From Streptomyces spinosus (lineage in GTDB: Bacteria > Actinomycetota > Actinomycetes > Streptomycetales > Streptomycetaceae), in contig NZ_JAINRC010000001.1 in the NCBI RefSeq assembly GCF_020400655.1, positions 558,001-622,000 on the forward strand: a DNA stretch of 64,000 nt, in the 5' to 3' direction. This document shows, one piece after another, positions 14,205-22,435 of the stretch (its first letter is position 1; each line of letters begins with the position of its first letter). The translations under genes and the position numbers were made by a program. Below the pieces are notes generated by a model, which was given only the letters and a program-made list of their open reading frames with translations, searched no databases and was not told where the DNA came from.

Positions 14205-14924
14205 GTGAGCCACGTTCCCGCCCCCACCGCCGACAGCCCCGCCCGGCCCGCGCCCGATCCGCGCGACGAGGCGCCCCAGTTCGTCCTGCCGCTCGTGGTA
14301 CGGATCGAACGGGGCACACCACCGGCCCGTACCGACGCCCTGGAGACCGCCGCCCGGGCCGTGCTGACCCTGCTCGGCGACGAGCGGGCGCACGGTGACG
14401 GCGAGTGGGCTGAGGCGGTGCGCGGCTGGGAGGACGCCCGGATCCGGAAGGTGGTCCGGCGGGCCCGGGGCGCGGAGTGGCGGCGCGCCGAGGCGCTGCC
14501 CGGGATCACGGTGACGGGCGCCTCCGCGGAGGTCCGGGTCTTCCCGCCGGTCCCGCTGGACGGCTGGCCGAAGGACCTGGCGAGGCTCCAGGTGTCGGGC
14601 ACCGAGCTGGACGACCCGGAACCGCCGGCCCCCGCCGACCCGGCCGGCCGGGTCGTGCTCTGGCTGAACCCGGACCTGGAGATGTCGGCCGGCAAGGCGA
14701 TGGCCCAGGCCGGCCACGGCGCCCAGCTCGCCTGGTGGGCCCTGCCGGACACCGCCCGCGCCGCCTGGCGCGACGCCGGATTCCCCCTCGCCGTCCGCAC
14801 CGCCGCCCCGGCCGACTGGCCCCGCCTGACCACCAGCGGCCTGCCCGTGGTCCGCGACGCCGGCTTCACGGAGATCGCCCCCGGCTCCTGCACGGTGGTG
14901 GCGGACCACCCGGGCCTGCGCTGA
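14205..14924 (+). CDS. Peptidyl-tRNA hydrolase, PTH2-type
   Basis: A 239-residue protein whose C-terminal half matches the PTH2 fold, the archaeal/eukaryal type of enzyme that recycles peptidyl-tRNA. Seen directly: [26 protein letters not shown] (split here as [15 protein letters not shown], residues about 162-176, the PTH2 K-x-x-A-Q-x-x-H core) and [19 protein letters not shown] near the end (PTH2 D-A-G-x-T-x-I-x-P-G-x-x-T-V signature). The N-terminal 130 residues are specific to actinobacteria. GTG at 14205 is preceded by TAGGCT at 14191-14196 and no Shine-Dalgarno sequence, so leaderless expression is likely. It is divergent from the small peptide and ABC exporter. Confidence 0.85.
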
Positions 14925-15057
14925 CCGGGGAGCGCCCCGCCGTCCCGCAACCTCAAATGTTGCTCTGAAGGCGTCACCCGGAAGGTTCGGGGGCGGTCGC
15001 CGGGGCCATATCCCCGTCACTCGACGCAGCAGCACGGGCCGAGGAGGGGGAAGCACC

Positions 15058-16383
15058 ATGCGGCGACTGGGGACCGGGATCGGGTGGCGGCCGGAGATCG
15101 CGGACGCCGTGGAGCGCATGCCCGGCATCGACTGGGTGGAGGTCGTGGCGGAGAACGTCTGCCCCGGCCACCTGCCCCCGTCGCTGCTGCGGCTGCGCGA
15201 GCGCGGGGTGACGGTGGTCCCGCACGGCGTCTCCCTCGGTCTCGGGGGCGCGGACCGGCCCGACGAGGGGCGGCTGACGGCGCTCGCCGAGCGGGCGGAG
15301 GCGCTCGGCTCACCGCTGGTCACCGAGCACATCGCCTTCGTCCGGGCGGGCGGCGCGCTCACCGCCTCCCCGCGCCTGGAGGCCGGTCATCTGCTGCCGG
15401 TGCCGCGCACCCGGGACGCGCTGGACGTGCTGTGCGAGAACGTCCGCATCGCGCAGGACGCGCTGCCGGTGCCGCTGGCCCTGGAGAACATCGCCGCGCT
15501 GTTCTCCTGGCCGGGCGAGGAGCTGACCGAGGGGGAGTTCCTGTCCGAGCTGGTCGAGCGGACCGGCGTACGGCTGCTGATCGACGTGGCCAACCTGCAC
15601 ACCAACCACGTCAACCGGGGCGAGGACCCCGCGGGGGCGCTGGCCGCGCTGCCCCTCGAGGCGATCGCCTACGTCCATGTCGCGGGCGGCTTCGAGCGGG
15701 ACGGCGTCTGGCACGACAGCCATGCGCACCCCGTGCCGCGTCCGGTCCTCGACATCCTGACCTCCCTCGCCGCCCGGGCCGAGCCGCCGGGGGTGCTGCT
15801 GGAGCGGGACGAGAACTTCCCGGCACCGGCGGAGCTGGAGCGGGAGCTGGACACGATCCGGGAAGCGGTGACGGTCGGGCGCGCGGCGGGAAGCACGGCA
15901 GGGGGCACGACCGGGGCGCCGGCCGTCGGGGGTGCGCGGACCGGGGGTGTCGGTGTCCTGGCGAGGCCGGTGGCGGCGCCCCCGGCGGACGTGCGTGAGC
16001 GGGTCGGGGTCGCGCAGACCGCCGTGCTGTCGTCGCTGGTGGCGGGCACGCCGGTGCCGGAGGGGTTCGACCGGGTGCGGATGGGGGTGCAGGCGCGGGC
16101 GCTCGCGGCGAAGCGGGCGGGGGTCGTGGCGAAGGTGGCGCCCGAGCTGCCGGTGATCCTGGGGGCGGGGTACCGGGAGGCGTTCCTGGAGTACGCCCGG
16201 CAGCGGCCGATGCGCGGGGGCTACCGGCTGGACGCGCTGGACTTCGCCGGCCACCTGCTGAAGCTGGGGCGGCCGGACGGCGCGGGGGCGCGGCGCGAAC
16301 TGCGGGACTGGTGGCTGGACCGCTCGGGCCCGGCACCGCGCAAGCGGGGGCCCGTGGAGCGGGTTCTGCGGCGCCGGGTCTGA
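15058..16383 (+). CDS. Multinuclear non-heme iron oxidase (MNIO/DUF692) fused to a partner-like domain
   Basis: A 441-residue protein. Residues 1-285 are a DUF692 TIM-barrel: [56 protein letters not shown] and LLERDENFP carry the expected Glu/Asn/His/Asp iron ligands. This family (MbnB, TglH and relatives) oxidises cysteines or other residues in ribosomal peptides using iron and O2. After a Gly/Ala linker (about 286-320) the last 110 residues ([49 protein letters not shown]) look like the DUF2063/HvfC-type partner domain that is a separate protein in Gram-negative systems. Strong GAGGGGGAAG before the ATG. Downstream DUF4142 and TIGR04222 genes follow in the same direction. Confidence 0.9.
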
Positions 16384-16567
16384 CGCGTGGCCCCGCGCCG
16401 CCCGGACCGGGCCGCGCCGGCCGGCACCGGCCAGGTGCCGCCGCGCCGGGTCGCCGTGCGGGCCTCATCCCCCCGGCGGCAGCGCGGAGCGCCGCCCCGG
16501 CCCCCAAGTAGTATGCCAACCCCGCACCCATCCCCAGCACACCCCGGCGTGCGGCGCAGGAGGCATC

Positions 16568-17422
16568 ATGCGACCGCGACCGCGACCCCCGGTCAACGGC
16601 CGAGGCATATTCAGCGGCACCGGGCTCATCGTCACCGGCCTGGCGGCGACGGTTGTCGCGCTGCTCGTCCCGCTGTGGTCGTACGCCGAGCGGCAGGACG
16701 ACCCGGCGAGCGCGAGCGTGCTCAGCGCGCAGACGGTGACGACCCCGTACGGCCCGCTGTCCGCGCAGGACCGGGACTTCGTCACCAAGGTGCGGCTGGC
16801 CGGGCTGTGGGAGCTGCCCGCCGGACAGCTGGCGCAGAGCAAGGGGACCACGCCCGCCGTCCGCACGGCCGGCCGGCACCTCGTCGACGGCCACACCTCC
16901 CTCGACGCGCACGTCCGGACGGTCGCCACCCAGCTCGGCATCGCGCTGCCCAACGAGCCGAACGAGCAGCAGAAGCAGTGGCTCGCCACCCTGGACAGGG
17001 CCCAGGGCCAGGACTTCGACCGCCAGTTCGCCGGCATCCTGCGGCTCGCGCACGGCCGGGTGTTCTCGCTGGTCGCGCAGATCCGGGCCGGGACCCAGAA
17101 CTCCCTGGTCCGCGATCTCGCCGACGACGCCAACGCGACCGTCCTGGACCACATCAGGGTCCTGGAGGCGACCGGGTACGTCGACTTCGGCGCACTGGCC
17201 AGGGATCTGGCGGCCTCCGCCTCCCCGGTGCCGACCCCGTCGGAGGTGGACCCCGGCGCGGCCGTACCGGTCGAGCCGTCAGCGGCCGATCCGTCAGCGG
17301 CCGATCCGTCAGCGGCCGATCCGTCAGCGGGCCAGGCGTCACAAACCCAGACGTCGCCCGGCGAGACCGTGCCGCTGCCGCCGGCCACCAGCGGCCCGCC
17401 GCCGGCCACGAGCAGCCCCTGA
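16568..17422 (+). CDS. DUF4142 protein with N-terminal membrane anchor
   Basis: A 284-residue envelope protein. An N-terminal hydrophobic segment (GLIVTGLAATVVALLVPLW, residues 19-37) probably anchors or exports it. Residues 60-215 are the helical DUF4142 ferritin-like domain (QDRDFVTKVRLAGLWEL, GRHLVDGHTSLDAHVRTVA). The tail from residue 220 is Pro/Ala/Ser-rich and contains SAADP repeats encoded by a 15-base unit (gtcagcggccgatcc) in tandem at about 17278-17325. AGGAGG is well placed before the ATG. It lies between the MNIO and TIGR04222 genes, so a role in an oxidised or metal-bound envelope product is possible but unproven. Confidence 0.87.
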   Translation: MRPRPRPPVNGRGIFSGTGLIVTGLAATVVALLVPLWSYAERQDDPASASVLSAQTVTTPYGPLSAQDRDFVTKVRLAGLWELPAGQLAQSKGTTPAVRTAGRHLVDGHTSLDAHVRTVATQLGIALPNEPNEQQKQWLATLDRAQGQDFDRQFAGILRLAHGRVFSLVAQIRAGTQNSLVRDLADDANATVLDHIRVLEATGYVDFGALARDLAASASPVPTPSEVDPGAAVPVEPSAADPSAADPSAADPSAGQASQTQTSPGETVPLPPATSGPPPATSSP

Positions 17423-17519
17423 CCAGCCCGGAAAGCGGAACGTCACAGACCGGCAACACTGCGTCCGGATCGTGGAAAGGGCATGGCGTCCGCCCAGTCC
17501 CCTGGCATAGAAACACGTC

Positions 17520-18299
17520 ATGTTCTGGGTCCTTCTCCTGCTCCTGGCCTGGTCTTTCGCCGGTACGGCCTGCGCCCGGCTGTGCCTTGCTGCCGTCCGT
17601 TCGGCAGCCGCGGACGCGCGTGACGCACCGGCGGACGGGGAGCGTGATCTGACGCTGTACGAGGCGGCCTTCCTCTCCGGCGGCCCCGCGCGGGTCGCCG
17701 ACGTGACCCTGGTCTCCATGGCCCGCCAGCGCCGGCTGCTGCTCGCGCACACGGGCTGGGCGACGGTCGTGGACCCGCGGGGGCGGGACGAGATGGAGCA
17801 GTCCGTCATAGGGGCCATAGGGCCGGAGGGCCAGTCGCGGATCGCTCCGGTACGGGCCCGGGCGGCCGGCGCCGAGGCGGTGCGCCGGCTGGCAGACGGG
17901 CTGGTCCGCGCGGGTCTCGCGGTGCCCGAGGGCACGGGGACCACCGTGGGGGCCGCCGTCCGCCAGGTGCGGGCCTCGGTGTTCGTCGTGGCCGCGCTGG
18001 GCGTGACCGCGCTGCTGCTGCCCGTCCGGACCGGGACGCCCCGGCTGCTGGTGGGCCTGTGGTTCGCCCTGCCCCTCGCCCTGGCGCTGAGCTGCCTGGC
18101 CATCGCCCGGTTCGAGGTGCATCCGTACTCGCGCTGGGCGTCCCCGGCCGGACAGCGGCTGCTGAGCGCGCTGGCCGGCAGGCCGGCCGGGGACGAGCGC
18201 TCGTTCCTCACCTCGGTGGCCGTACGCGGCGTCCGGGCGATAGGCGAACCGGAGTTGCGCGCGGCCTTCACCCACCGCGACCAGCCCTGGCGGGAGTGA
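17520..18299 (+). CDS. TIGR04222-domain membrane protein without Cys/Gly tail
   Basis: A 259-residue membrane protein. It begins with a transmembrane segment (MFWVLLLLLAWSFAGTACA), then a soluble part with the TIGR04222-type stretch LYEAAFLSGGPARVADVTLV (split, residues 45-64) and two later hydrophobic segments (VFVVAALGVTALLLPV; LLVGLWFALPLALALSCLAIA). Many members of this family end in a low-complexity Gly/Cys tail; here the protein stops at HRDQPWRE with no such tail. Co-localisation with MNIO enzymes is known to me from actinobacteria, and suggests it is a substrate, carrier or membrane partner. The ribosome site is weak. It is 97 bases behind the DUF4142 gene. Confidence 0.82.
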   Translation: MFWVLLLLLAWSFAGTACARLCLAAVRSAAADARDAPADGERDLTLYEAAFLSGGPARVADVTLVSMARQRRLLLAHTGWATVVDPRGRDEMEQSVIGAIGPEGQSRIAPVRARAAGAEAVRRLADGLVRAGLAVPEGTGTTVGAAVRQVRASVFVVAALGVTALLLPVRTGTPRLLVGLWFALPLALALSCLAIARFEVHPYSRWASPAGQRLLSALAGRPAGDERSFLTSVAVRGVRAIGEPELRAAFTHRDQPWRE

Positions 18300-18476: not shown

Positions 18477-20135
18477 ATGAAAGCTGCCGCCCTCTACTCG
18501 GCCGCCGGTTCCTTGCTCCTGACCACCCTGGCCGCGGCCCCGGCGGGCGGCACACCCGGTAGCCCCGGCACGGCGGGCGCCCCCGGCGCGGCCGAGCTGC
18601 GCGGCACGGCGGTGGCCGTGGCCCGCGCCCGGGCGGCCGGGATCGACTTCGGTCCGTGCTCCGCCGCCGACGTGCCGGAGGCACCGGCCGGCGTGCGCTG
18701 CGGCACGGTGAGCGTCCCGCTGGACTACGCCCACCCGAACGGCAAGCGGATCCGGCTGACCGTCAGCCGCGCCGAGGCCACCCACAAGGACCCGCGCAAC
18801 AGCAAGCGGAGGGTCCCCCGGCAGGGCGCCCTGGTCTTCAACCCGGGCGGCCCCGGCGCCTCCGGCATGTACTTCCCGCTCATCGGCGCGATCCCGGCGT
18901 GGCAGCGGGTCGCCGCCGCCTACGACCTCGTCGGCTACGCCCCGCGCGGCGTCGGCCGGTCGGCGCCGCTGTCCTGCGAGGACCCGAAGCACTTCTTCAA
19001 GGCGCCCACCGCGGCACCGTCGCACCCCTCGGAGGCGTACAAGCGGCAGCGCGTCGCGCAGGCGAAGGCGTACGCGCGCGGCTGTGCCCGGCGGTCGGGG
19101 AGCGGGCTGCGGTTCTACAACTCGCTCAACAACGCCCGCGACCTCGACGTCCTGCGGGCCGCGCTGGGCGAGGACCGGCTGACCTTCATGGGGGCGTCGT
19201 ACGGCACCTACTTCGGGGCGCTGTACGCGACGATGTTCCCCTCCCACGTGCGGCGCATGGTGCTGGACTCGGCGGTGAACCCGGACCCGCAGAAGATCTG
19301 GTACCGCAGCAACCTGGACCAGTCGGCGGCGTTCGAGGAGCGCTGGGCGGACTTCCGTGAGTGGATCGCCCGGCACGACGACGTGTACCGGCTCGGCGCC
19401 ACGCCCGCGCGGGTGCAGCGCAGCTACGACACCGCGCGCGAACGGCTGGCCGTCAAGGCGGCGGGCGGGACGGTCGGTCCGGGCCAGTTGCAGAACGTCC
19501 TGCTGACGGCCGGGTACTACGACGACTTCTGGCCGAGCCGCGCGGCGGCGCTCTCGGCGTATCTGCACGGCGACCCGAAGCCGCTCGTCCGGCTGGCCAC
19601 GCCGAGCCCGGAGTCCGCCACCGAGGCGGAGAACGGCAACGCGGTGTACACGGCCGTGGAGTGCAACGACGCGCCCTGGCCGACGGACTGGGCGGTGTGG
19701 GACCGGGACAACACGCGGCTCGCCCGGGTGGCACCCTTCGAGACCTGGGACAACGCCTGGATGAACCTGCCGTGCGCCTACTGGCCGGCGCCCCGGCAAC
19801 GGCCGCTGGACGTGCGCACCGGGGTCGGCGAGCTGCCGCCGGTGCTGGTCCTGGCGGCCGAGCGGGACGCCGCCGCGCCGTACACGGGCGCGCTGGAGAT
19901 GAACCGGCGGCTGGCGGGCTCGGTGCTGGTGACCGAGCGGGACGCGGGCACGCACGGCGTCGGCGGCGGACCCAACAGGTGCGTCAACGGGTACCTGGAG
20001 GCGTACCTGCTGGAGGGCCGCGTCCCGGCACGGCACGCGTCGTGCGCGCCGCGCCCCGAACCGGTCGCCTCCGGCGGTCCGGCCGACAAGGGGGTTCGGC
20101 GGGATGCCCTCAAGGGCAAGGGCATCCGGCGTTAG
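18477..20135 (+). CDS. Secreted alpha/beta-hydrolase, tripeptidyl-aminopeptidase-like
   Basis: A 552-residue secreted serine peptidase of the Streptomyces Tap/SlpD type, which clips short peptides from the N-terminus of proteins outside the cell. A signal peptide (MKAAALYSAAGSLLLTTLAAAPAGG) is followed by GTVSVPLDYAHPNGKRI, the oxyanion region VFNPGGPGASGM, DLVGYAPRGVGRSAPLSC, the nucleophile elbow MGASYGTYFG, and late Asp and His candidates in LAAERDAAAPYTGA and DAGTHGVGG. The C-terminal TAP-like domain is complete. GAAGGGAT lies 7 bases upstream of the ATG. The opposite-strand hemQ gene converges on it. Confidence 0.93.
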   Translation: MKAAALYSAAGSLLLTTLAAAPAGGTPGSPGTAGAPGAAELRGTAVAVARARAAGIDFGPCSAADVPEAPAGVRCGTVSVPLDYAHPNGKRIRLTVSRAEATHKDPRNSKRRVPRQGALVFNPGGPGASGMYFPLIGAIPAWQRVAAAYDLVGYAPRGVGRSAPLSCEDPKHFFKAPTAAPSHPSEAYKRQRVAQAKAYARGCARRSGSGLRFYNSLNNARDLDVLRAALGEDRLTFMGASYGTYFGALYATMFPSHVRRMVLDSAVNPDPQKIWYRSNLDQSAAFEERWADFREWIARHDDVYRLGATPARVQRSYDTARERLAVKAAGGTVGPGQLQNVLLTAGYYDDFWPSRAAALSAYLHGDPKPLVRLATPSPESATEAENGNAVYTAVECNDAPWPTDWAVWDRDNTRLARVAPFETWDNAWMNLPCAYWPAPRQRPLDVRTGVGELPPVLVLAAERDAAAPYTGALEMNRRLAGSVLVTERDAGTHGVGGGPNRCVNGYLEAYLLEGRVPARHASCAPRPEPVASGGPADKGVRRDALKGKGIRR

Positions 20136-20209
20136 GCGCGACTACCAGGGTTCCCGATCGGGGCGCCGGCCGGCCGCGGGTTCCCCGTGCCCGGTCGCGC
20201 CGTTCCCCC

Positions 20210-20227
20210 GCGCCCCTTCGGGGGCGC
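20210..20227. terminator. UUCG-loop hairpin between convergent genes
   Basis: GCGCCCC (20210-20216), TTCG, GGGGCGC (20221-20227): a perfect 7-bp stem capped by a stable UUCG tetraloop, adjoining the hemQ stop. It can serve either the peptidase or hemQ transcript. Confidence 0.6.
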
Positions 20228-20228
20228 T

Positions 20229-20960
20229 TCAGGCGAGGCCCGCCACCAGTTCGCCGATGTCCTTGCGGCGGCCCGTGAAGAACGGGACCTCCTCGCGGAC
20301 GTGCATGCGGGCCTCGGAGGCGCGCAGGTGACGCATGAGGTCGACGATGCGGTAGAGCTCGTCGGCCTCGAAGGCCAGGATCCACTCGTAGTCGCCGAGG
20401 GAGAACGAGGCGACCGTGTTGGCGCGCACGTCCGGGTAGCCACGGGCCATCTTGCCGTGGTCGGCGAGCATCCGGCGCCGGTCCTCGTCGGGCAGCAGGT
20501 ACCAGTCGTAGGAGCGGACGAAGGGGTAGACGCTCACGTAGTTGCGGGGCGTCTCGTCGGCGAGGAACGCCGGGATGTGCGAGCGGTTGAACTCGGCGGG
20601 GCGGTGCAGCGCCATGTTCGACCACACCGGCTCCAGCGCGCGGCCGAGCCTCGTGCGGCGGAAGAGGTTGTACGCCTCCTGGAGCTGGTCGCTGGTCTCG
20701 GCGTGCCACCAGATCATGAGGTCGGCGTCGGCGCGCAGGCCGGAGACGTCGTAGGTGCCGCGGATCGTCACGTCCTTCGCGGCGAGCTGGTCGAACAGCT
20801 CCTGGACCTCGTCGGCGTAGCCCGCGCGGTCCTCCGGCAGGACGTCCTTCAGCCTGAAGACGGACCAGAGGGTGTAGCGGATGACCTCGTTGAGGTCCTT
20901 GGCCAGCTTGCCCTTGTTCGGGATCCTGCCGGACTCGGTGGTGGGGGCGTCGTCACTCAT
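20229..20960 (-). CDS. hemQ: Coproheme decarboxylase (chlorite dismutase-like)
   Basis: A 243-residue heme-binding protein that performs the last step of the coproporphyrin-dependent heme pathway, oxidative decarboxylation of coproheme to heme b. Typical features seen: [11 protein letters not shown] near the start, [24 protein letters not shown] (shown as [16 protein letters not shown]), [33 protein letters not shown] (RRRMLxxHG is the family motif) and [12 protein letters not shown] at 20960 lies 5 bases after the hemY stop, so the pair is one operon. Longer upstream frames read antisense hemY codons and are rejected. Confidence 0.95.
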
Positions 20961-20965
20961 GGTCC

Positions 20966-22435
20966 CTATTCTCCCGCTCCGCCGTGCAGGCTCTGCACCG
21001 GGTTGGCCGTCAGCTCCCGGACCCCGGCGAGGTCGCCGCCGAGCTGGTCCACCGCCGCGTACGCGCTCGCGATGCAGGCCGGGACGCCGACGCCGTCGTA
21101 CTGGGCGCCGCACACCGCGAGCCCCGGCAGCCTGGCGATCCGCTCGCGGACGCGGGCCACGCGCGCGTGGTGCCCGACGGGGTACTGCGGCAGGCCGTCG
21201 GTCCAGCGGGTGACCCGGGTCCGCAGCGGTACCGCGTCCAGGCCCGTGGCCTCCCGCAGGTCGTGCCGGGAGACCGCCACCAGGCCGGCGTCGTCCCGGC
21301 CGAGGATCTCGCTCTCGCCGTAGCGGCCCACGGACGTGCGCAGGACGACCACGTCCGGGTCCTCCTCGGCGATCCAGCCCCACTTCCGGGAGGCGAAGGT
21401 GGCGGCCTTGATGGTCCGGCCGTCGACGGGCGGCACCAGGAAGCCGCTGCCCTCGGGCAGGCGCAGGTCGGCACGCCGGTAGGCGAGGGTGACGAGGGCC
21501 ATCGAGGCGTACTCGACGGCGGCCAGCTCGGCGGCGGCGGCCGGGGACTCGGCGCGCAGCAGGGCGGCGGCGGCCGGGGCGGGTACGGCGACGATCACGG
21601 CGTCGGCGTGCAGCACGCGTTCCCCGGCGGTGATCCGCCAGCCGCCGGACGCGTCCCGGCGCAGTTCCCGCGCGGGCGTGCCGGTCAGGATCTCGCCGCC
21701 CCGCGCCCGCACCGAGTCGGCGACCGCCGACGGCAGCCGCCCGACCCCGCCGGCGATGCCCATGAAGACCGGCCCGGTCTGCTGCTGGGCGGCGGCCTTC
21801 GCCTGGATCTCGCGGACGCCCCGCGTGAGGGAGACGTGGGTGCGGGCGGCCTGGAAGAGCTGCGGGACGGCGGAACGCATGGAGATGCGGTAGGCGTCGC
21901 CCGCGTACACCCCGCCGAGCAGGGGTTCGACGAGCCGGTCGACGACCTCGCGGCCGAGCCGGGCCGCCACGTACTCCCCCACGGCCACGTCGTCGCCGGT
22001 CTCGGTGCGGGGCAGGTCGGCGTCGCGCTCGACGCGGGCCAGGCCCTCGTCCGAGAGGACGCCGGTCAGGGCGGCGGCGGTGCCGGGCACGCCCATCACA
22101 TGGCCCTTGGGCATGGGCCGCAGGGCACCGCGGGTCCAGATCGAGGCGGTCGCGGTGGCGGGCGGCTGGAGCTGCTCGCCCAGTCCGGCCTCGCGCGCGA
22201 GGGCCACCGCCTCGGGGCGGCGGGCGAGCAGGGACTCGGCGCCCAGGTCGACCCGCACGCCGGCGATCTCGCCGGGCAGCAGCTTGCCGCCGACCCGGTC
22301 TGCGGCCTCCAGCACCGTCACCCGCGCTCCGCGCCCCAGCAGCCGGTGCGCGGCGGCCAGTCCGGCGATGCCGGCCCCGATGACGACGACGTGCCCCGGG
22401 CTCCCACCCGGCGCGCTGCTACCCCTTGCGCTCAT
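20966..22435 (-). CDS. hemY: Coproporphyrinogen III oxidase (protoporphyrinogen oxidase HemY/CgoX type)
   Basis: A 489-residue FAD enzyme. The FAD motif [21 protein letters not shown] is at residues 16-36 and is followed by [19 protein letters not shown]'s start ([10 protein letters not shown]). A central [29 protein letters not shown] (seen as [19 protein letters not shown]) is the PPO family hallmark, and the C-terminal [21 protein letters not shown] closes the FAD site. In actinobacteria this enzyme oxidises coproporphyrinogen III to coproporphyrin III, consistent with its partner hemQ. hemE lies 3.9 kb away on the same strand, with four unrelated genes between. Confidence 0.95.

Follow-up and report, generated by a model that had tools for sequence, protein, structure and literature searches.

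The stretch of Streptomyces spinosus DNA analysed here (64,000 nucleotides, hereafter the window; contig NZ_JAINRC010000001.1, positions 558,001 to 622,000) carries a gene of the MNIO family, iron enzymes that modify cysteines in proteins, whose catalytic barrel is followed in the same reading frame by a second, helical domain (Table 1). This fused gene is retained intact in a clade of Streptomyces loci at which the cysteine-tailed membrane protein encoded beside many of its relatives is absent. The account favoured here, with modest confidence, is that of a one-chain maturase whose client at the locus was lost and which is retained to serve another client, encoded elsewhere. On this view the gene product would unite on one chain an MNIO iron oxygenase and, attached to its C-terminal end, a partner domain for substrate docking. 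The ancestral client of such enzymes in Actinomycetes would have been the cysteine-bearing Ser/Gly tail at the C-terminal end of a membrane protein from an adjacent gene, in most cases a TIGR04222 protein: once docked by the partner domain, the client would have its tail cysteines oxidised at the iron centre. In the lineage of the window the gene of the tailed protein (termed "a", between the MNIO and DUF4142 genes) would have been lost, leaving MNIO, a DUF4142 protein and a tail-less TIGR04222 protein (termed "b"), and selection would keep the enzyme through at least one further client encoded away from the locus. A wider version of this proposal, in which a one-chain MNIO-partner enzyme uncoupled from any clustered precursor modifies unlinked, perhaps housekeeping proteins and is near-core in a clade of 25 Streptomyces species, is offered only tentatively; if true, it would mean post-translational oxidation outside any biosynthetic gene cluster.

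The comparison is based on 113 MNIO loci (53 from Streptomyces and 60 others), obtained from 20 of the 37 other genomes with a match in one search and from 90 of the 94 with a match in another, that of the window included. Several matches (G335, G301, G070, G088 and further secondary or partial ones) were left out of this set and one weak hit, L153, was included; TIGR04222 matches of under 150 residues enter neither the trees nor the group counts. In the class and genus searches 7, 9 or 15 candidates were scored per genome (9 or 15 in a survey of 180 genomes of the genus) and absences are graded accordingly, whereas in the genome-wide TIGR04222 scans of the 25 clade genomes up to 63 candidates were scored in each and 82 in the genome of the window. 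The label "bufferin type" is used for five loci with a DUF2063-like partner.

The catalytic domain matches PF05114 over residues 6–270 (E 1.1e-77, 261.4 bits against a gathering threshold of 25) and is the sole such match in its genome (9.17 Mb, 94 contigs). Nine polar residues (H56, H91, E143, D176, N179, H207, D220, H222, and E249), candidate iron ligands by comparison with known MNIOs, occupy invariant columns in an alignment of 77 sequences including that of the window. The best fold match in the PDB is chain B of 8hci, a TglHI structure (E 1.6e-18), with 8hi7 and 7dz9 also among the best matches. The nearest NCBIfam models, NF050167 (177.5 bits for a cut-off of 310) and NF003818 (145.6 for 360), are those of the bufferin-type maturases BufB and HvfB, from which the enzyme differs in scoring far below both cut-offs and in giving no DUF2063 match. 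In the AlphaFold model of the full protein (predicted local distance difference test, pLDDT, 94.3; predicted template modelling score, pTM, 0.91) the linker between the two domains is weak, with confidence values of 55–68 in blocks covering residues 281–300; across the fused Streptomyces loci the match to the C-terminal domain starts 46 to 529 bases past the catalytic match.

The C-terminal domain has no match at E ≤ 1 in Pfam or NCBIfam, and the DUF2063 signature (PF09836) is likewise without a match at E ≤ 1 in the whole protein or in the C-terminal part. A profile made from the domain finds 106 relatives among the 17,328 open reading frames (ORFs) of the MNIO loci. At the 108 loci not of bufferin type the domain is fused to MNIO in 60, encoded by a stand-alone gene beside it in 45 and not found in three (L117, L123, and the weak hit L153), and it occurs at none of the five bufferin-type loci. 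Where TIGR04222 is present the domain is fused at 54, separate at 32 and not found at one of 87 loci, and in Streptomyces the fused form predominates (46 of 53, the remaining seven being separate). The fusion state changes at least ten times on the MNIO tree, so that fusing and splitting seem to recur.

The isolated domain is modelled with a pLDDT of 91.6, and in a Foldseek search of 350,542 PDB chains its top match is 7dz9_C, the MbnC subunit of the MbnABC complex (E 2.4). Alignment with this chain by VIA-align gives Z 5.6 (root-mean-square deviation 3.1 over 82 residues; next chain Z 3.6), a value which alone, by the tool's own warning, could reflect a common helical arrangement. This weak match counts as telling because the top-ranked chain is itself an MNIO partner; 3dee (NGO1945) and TglI are not among the matches listed in the search. 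Comparison by hhalign with six actinobacterial DUF2063-like proteins scores 24.5 (P 0.005, probability about 7%), against 15.8 or less for seven unrelated families. A partner identity is thus supported by gene order and, moderately, by the predicted fold, and the domain is most probably a built-in partner-like domain of the PME-type 2 kind. The original prediction had placed a partner of the DUF2063/HvfC type at this end of the enzyme and proposed its alignment with partner profiles: the partner-like character stands, on the fused and stand-alone occurrences and on the MbnC fold, the assignment to DUF2063/HvfC by sequence does not, and the alignment yields a weak similarity to DUF2063-like proteins.

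Two of the systems nearest to the enzyme, MbnB-MbnC (methanobactin) and TglH-TglI (3-thiaglutamate), act on small precursor peptides. They share the catalytic fold, and MbnC is the nearest structural match of the C-terminal domain; they differ in consisting of two chains where the window has one, and no linked precursor is seen in the window.

At 24 of the 53 Streptomyces loci an "a" gene follows MNIO, and the 25 proteins concerned carry a Ser/Gly tail with 5–10 cysteines. All 32 "b" sequences group in a single clade (Shimodaira–Hasegawa-like approximate likelihood ratio test, SH-aLRT, 100) and have cysteine-free tails. This clade includes the protein of the window, in which three residues follow the end of the domain and none is a cysteine; the absence of a Cys/Gly-rich tail, noticed beforehand from the sequence, is therefore confirmed and, by the comparison with relatives that had been proposed, shown to be a property of the whole clade. 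In Streptomyces the gene order is fused MNIO, "a", in some cases DUF4142, and "b", with a PTH2 gene and sometimes a second DUF4142 gene upstream, and each of these genes may be missing; outside Streptomyces the order TIGR04222, MNIO, domain gene is frequent.

Two observations bear on the possible nature of the ancestral client. Among TIGR04222 proteins with three predicted membrane segments, the 25 residues that follow the last segment are richer in Lys and Arg than the preceding loop in 22 of 24 "a" proteins, 32 of 34 proteins without tail cysteines and 28 of 41 others (13 of these 41 show the opposite), a comparison that relies on simple hydropathy and on windows that differ in length. The positive-inside rule would accordingly place the tail in the cytoplasm, within reach of a cytosolic enzyme. 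The second observation comes from a clade of eight loci of another family (f20) with no TIGR04222 at MNIO, seven of which (L122, L125, L126, L135, L141, L143, and L144) have, between MNIO and the domain gene, a short ORF encoding one hydrophobic segment and a Gly/His/Cys tail; that of L144 has no Pfam match. A similar protein is encoded after the domain gene at L148, outside this clade. Here a minimal anchor that bears a tail of similar kind appears to stand in for TIGR04222, which points to the tail rather than the TIGR04222 domain as the conserved target, the anchor being exchangeable.

The MNIO clade of the window comprises 25 loci (SH-aLRT 99). An "a" gene is present at none of them; 24 are testable, the locus of L090 stopping at a contig end just past MNIO in a genome that holds only a "b". 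Genome-wide, no TIGR04222 is found in two of the 25 genomes (G013 and G162), a single one in 12 (among them G001, 79% complete) and further copies in 11, and in 14 nothing besides "b" is found. Other precursors near the enzyme were sought as well. The intergenic stretches before and after MNIO, aligned with those of the three nearest relatives, show by eye no conserved short ORF (the gaps around TIGR04222 were not aligned), in agreement with the earlier statement that no short precursor gene is visible. An ORF combining a hydrophobic segment with a Cys/Gly/Ser tail, on the same strand within 4 kb of MNIO, occurs neither in the window nor at any of the 25 clade loci (L090 being cut by the contig end), a search in which other precursor types could be missed. 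The absence of "a" is best read as a loss; at the level of the locus, this agrees with one of the possibilities raised by the original prediction, loss of the substrate.

The enzyme itself has been kept. All 25 clade loci retain the fused MNIO gene with the nine polar residues intact, and the catalytic domain is under purifying selection: the median pairwise omega (dN/dS by the method of Nei and Gojobori, NG86; pairs not independent) is 0.150 over 300 pairs in the clade without "a", vs. 0.232 over 190 pairs at loci with "a", the corresponding medians for the neighbouring HemQ being 0.164 and 0.137. Six loci were chosen as informative about whether the remaining neighbours are the reason for this retention (G023, G645, G620, G627, G591, and G641). 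In G023 the hydrolase gene is the immediate neighbour of the fused MNIO, and the stretch contains no TIGR04222 and no DUF4142; in G645 and G620 DUF4142 is present and TIGR04222 is not found; in G627 the reading frames of TIGR04222 are broken. All four have intact catalytic residues. In G591 and G641, conversely, a tree-confirmed "b" is present with its first and third specific cysteines (see below) and no MNIO is found. For each neighbour there is therefore one genome or more in which the enzyme does without it, and a client elsewhere is the simplest reading. A substrate located elsewhere, also among the possibilities raised earlier, would best explain why the enzyme is kept.

Several points weigh against this account. 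On the side of the enzyme, the fold match behind the partner assignment falls short of significance by itself, one of 60 column-permuted controls exceeds the hhalign score obtained with the DUF2063-like proteins, and a profile search of PDB sequences with the domain (hmmsearch) gave nothing relevant. On the side of the client, "a" is a label given by position and tail, and the tree splits the proteins so named into three groups (of 19, 2, and 4 sequences); the presence of "a" changes at least five times among Streptomyces loci, a count that cannot separate gain from loss; and both trees are quick builds that include some long rows. The genomes G591 and G641 are near relatives (their "b" proteins are 94% identical) and amount to one case, not two. 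The closest-pair omega values in the subclade of the window (0.279, 0.241, and 0.175) exceed the clade median, so that some relaxation is possible. No unlinked client was found, and nine of the 11 clade genomes with further TIGR04222 proteins, including that of the window, have one to three tail cysteines in them (of the other two, one has none and one is unclear).

The last point leads to a specific candidate, namely that the client is the unlinked second TIGR04222 protein of the same genome. This protein is encoded about 162 kb away (G000 C11:410267-410938; L003 1486-2157) and has a Gly-rich tail with one cysteine, ending in GGGCGGGGGSD, a feature shared in kind by the nine genomes just mentioned. 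No counterpart is found, however, in 14 of the 25 clade genomes, all of which keep MNIO, and two of three such paralogues in genomes with "a" (L092–L094) have no tail cysteine. It can therefore be one client and not the clade-wide reason for retention, and as an explanation of the locus it is a possibility of limited probability.

A client may also lie at the locus itself, if MNIO oxidised the three "b"-specific cysteines of the adjacent TIGR04222 protein, C18, C22, and C192 (codons 17571-17573, 17583-17585, and 18093-18095). These are near-universal in "b" (32, 28, and 30 of 32 proteins) and nearly missing elsewhere (1, 0, and 0 of 25 "a" proteins; 0, 0, and 1 of 44 others). A TIGR04222 gene is present at 22 of the 25 clade loci, and among the 180 genomes of the genus, 170 of which have MNIO, TIGR04222 accompanies it in 151, against 5 of the 10 in which no MNIO is found (Fisher p 0.004). 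The two genes nevertheless come apart in both directions. MNIO is intact with no TIGR04222 found in G013, G162, G645, G620, and G023, and "b" persists without a detected MNIO in G591 and G641. A rule that TIGR04222 never occurs without MNIO, suggested by G139, G284, and G335, failed in the survey of 180 genomes, since five of the ten without MNIO have TIGR04222, two of them a "b" by the tree. The cysteines are located where membrane segments 1 and 3 end, that is in the membrane or at its surface, whereas the targets of known MNIOs are flexible. Modification of the window's own TIGR04222 protein would not explain the retention of the enzyme, and "b" as client is regarded as rather improbable.

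A further alternative concerns the fused domain, which might be an unrelated helical appendage to an enzyme that needs no partner. The lack of any significant sequence or fold match to a partner family speaks for this explanation. Against it stand the recurrence of the domain as a gene beside MNIO in many Actinomycetes, its absence from the five loci with a DUF2063-like partner and the rank of an MNIO partner as the best of all PDB chains searched, and it is judged unlikely.

Still less support remains for a vestigial enzyme, its substrate lost and MNIO on its way out. The missing tailed gene, the nearest-pair omega values and the failure to detect an MNIO of this type in 10 of the 180 genus genomes, and its absence in G139 between retained PTH2 and hydrolase genes, would agree with decay; the intact fused gene in all 25 clade species, the low median omega and a conserved upstream element (see below) make it very improbable. 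The weakest proposal, that the DUF4142 protein has taken over as client, can draw on its position directly after MNIO in the window, its anchor-plus-tail anatomy and its persistence at the loci of G013, G162, G645, and G620, all without TIGR04222, but is barely tenable, as is the earlier suggestion that this protein or its SAADP tandem repeat (17279-17323) is modified, since the protein has no cysteine (nor do 27 of 33 family members, counted from the domain start on), the repeat is missing from the three nearest relatives, and the gene, present at 17 of the 25 clade loci, is not found at eight (one of which is truncated where its contig ends) or in the G023 stretch.

Upstream of MNIO lies the conserved element CCTCAAATGTTGCTCTGA, which can be written AACCTCAAAT-N4-CTCTGAA. 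It is found with at most four mismatches upstream of MNIO at 47 of the 53 Streptomyces loci and at none of the 60 other loci, and the six Streptomyces loci that lack it (L049, L052, L059, L060, L067, and L082) are all unfused. At up to three mismatches it is a single site in its genome, a reversed control giving none. The element may be an operator of the fused gene or belong to its promoter. Between 14.7 and 18.7 kb a simple consensus search, blind to promoters of other kinds, gives no sigma-70-type promoter or intrinsic terminator. An RNA leader was considered as the identity of the element and set aside, since Rfam gives no match at E ≤ 1 and a consensus fold was not found.

The enzyme family and the type of cluster are already known. 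In the paper by Antoine et al. (2025; PMC12452194), "adjamnio-II" clusters are described in which a peptidyl-tRNA hydrolase gene (adjamnio-II), MNIO and TIGR04222 follow one another, and TIGR04222 is proposed as the MNIO client, with a periplasmic tail. The same order of hydrolase, MNIO, and TIGR04222 is seen in the window; the differences are the fused partner-like domain, the lack of a Cys-tailed TIGR04222, the interposed DUF4142 gene and the hydrolase family, given there as PF01195, whereas the protein of the window matches PF01981 (PTH2). Antoine et al. also state that many TIGR04222-MNIO loci have no partner gene and leave open the mechanism in its absence. PME-type 2 partners are described there as short helical proteins encoded beside MNIO genes, including in Actinomycetota, with no DUF2063 signature (PMC12452194). 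The domain of the window agrees with these in being encoded directly with MNIO and in lacking that signature, and differs in its fusion to the enzyme in most Streptomyces and in showing no apparent second domain of the RiPP recognition element (RRE) type in the six-helix model. The short proteins with a hydrophobic segment and a Cys tail may equal "adjamnio-V", very small proteins encoded after MNIO genes in the same account (PMC12452194).

In the available text of PMC12452194 no MNIO-partner fusion appears under the words fused, fusion, or chimaera, and neither a fused partner-like domain nor an enzyme outliving its linked client was found in print in the open-licence literature. Fusion to the enzyme could be why TIGR04222 loci seem to have no partner: with a partner-like domain at 86 of 87 of them, the question of how such MNIOs work without partner genes would be answered. 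A lineage without the tailed client and with the enzyme is a natural experiment that separates the enzyme from its neighbourhood and suggests another client, and it shows that a locus with no precursor close by is not necessarily dead.

The locus consists of four plus-strand genes between 14.2 and 18.3 kb (Table 1). The identities given beforehand to the MNIO, DUF4142, and TIGR04222 products are all borne out by their family matches; the PTH2 gene upstream had been overlooked. This gene is present at 22 of the 25 loci of the MNIO clade and is probably a syntenic neighbour rather than a component of the system.

Table 1. Features of the MNIO locus, in coordinates of the window.
Feature	Coordinates	Strand	Remarks
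PTH2-type peptidyl-tRNA hydrolase homologue	14205..14924	+	239 aa, GTG start inferred; PF01981, E 4.9e-9
Upstream element	14951..14968	+	11-nt direct repeat CTCAAAT/CTCTGAA; about 107 bases before MNIO start
MNIO ORF	15058..16383	+	441 aa; C-terminal domain in same frame
MNIO catalytic barrel	15058..15882	+	residues 1-275; nine conserved polar residues
Low-confidence linker	15904..15972	+	about residues 283-305; length varies between species
Partner-like domain, PME-type-2-like	15973..16371	+	residues 306-438, about 130 residues, six helices (model)
DUF4142 protein	16568..17422	+	PF13628, E 1.4e-23; hydrophobic N-terminal segment, Pro/Ser-rich tail, no Cys
TIGR04222 protein, tail-less "b" clade	17520..18299	+	147.4 bits against a cut-off of 43

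The S. coelicolor gene SCO6045 is presumably this MNIO. It is listed as a "hypothetical protein", with a value of 1.59, in a table of genes controlled by HbpS-SenS-SenR in connection with oxidative stress (PMC4991794).

Downstream of TIGR04222, in the region 18477-22435, the window contains an alpha/beta hydrolase gene (PF08386/PF00561) and, on the other strand, genes of a chlorite-dismutase-family protein (PF06778, labelled HemQ) and a flavin amine-oxidoreductase-family protein (PF01593, labelled HemG), which by these labels of ours are haem synthesis genes. A similar neighbourhood is seen at many related loci.

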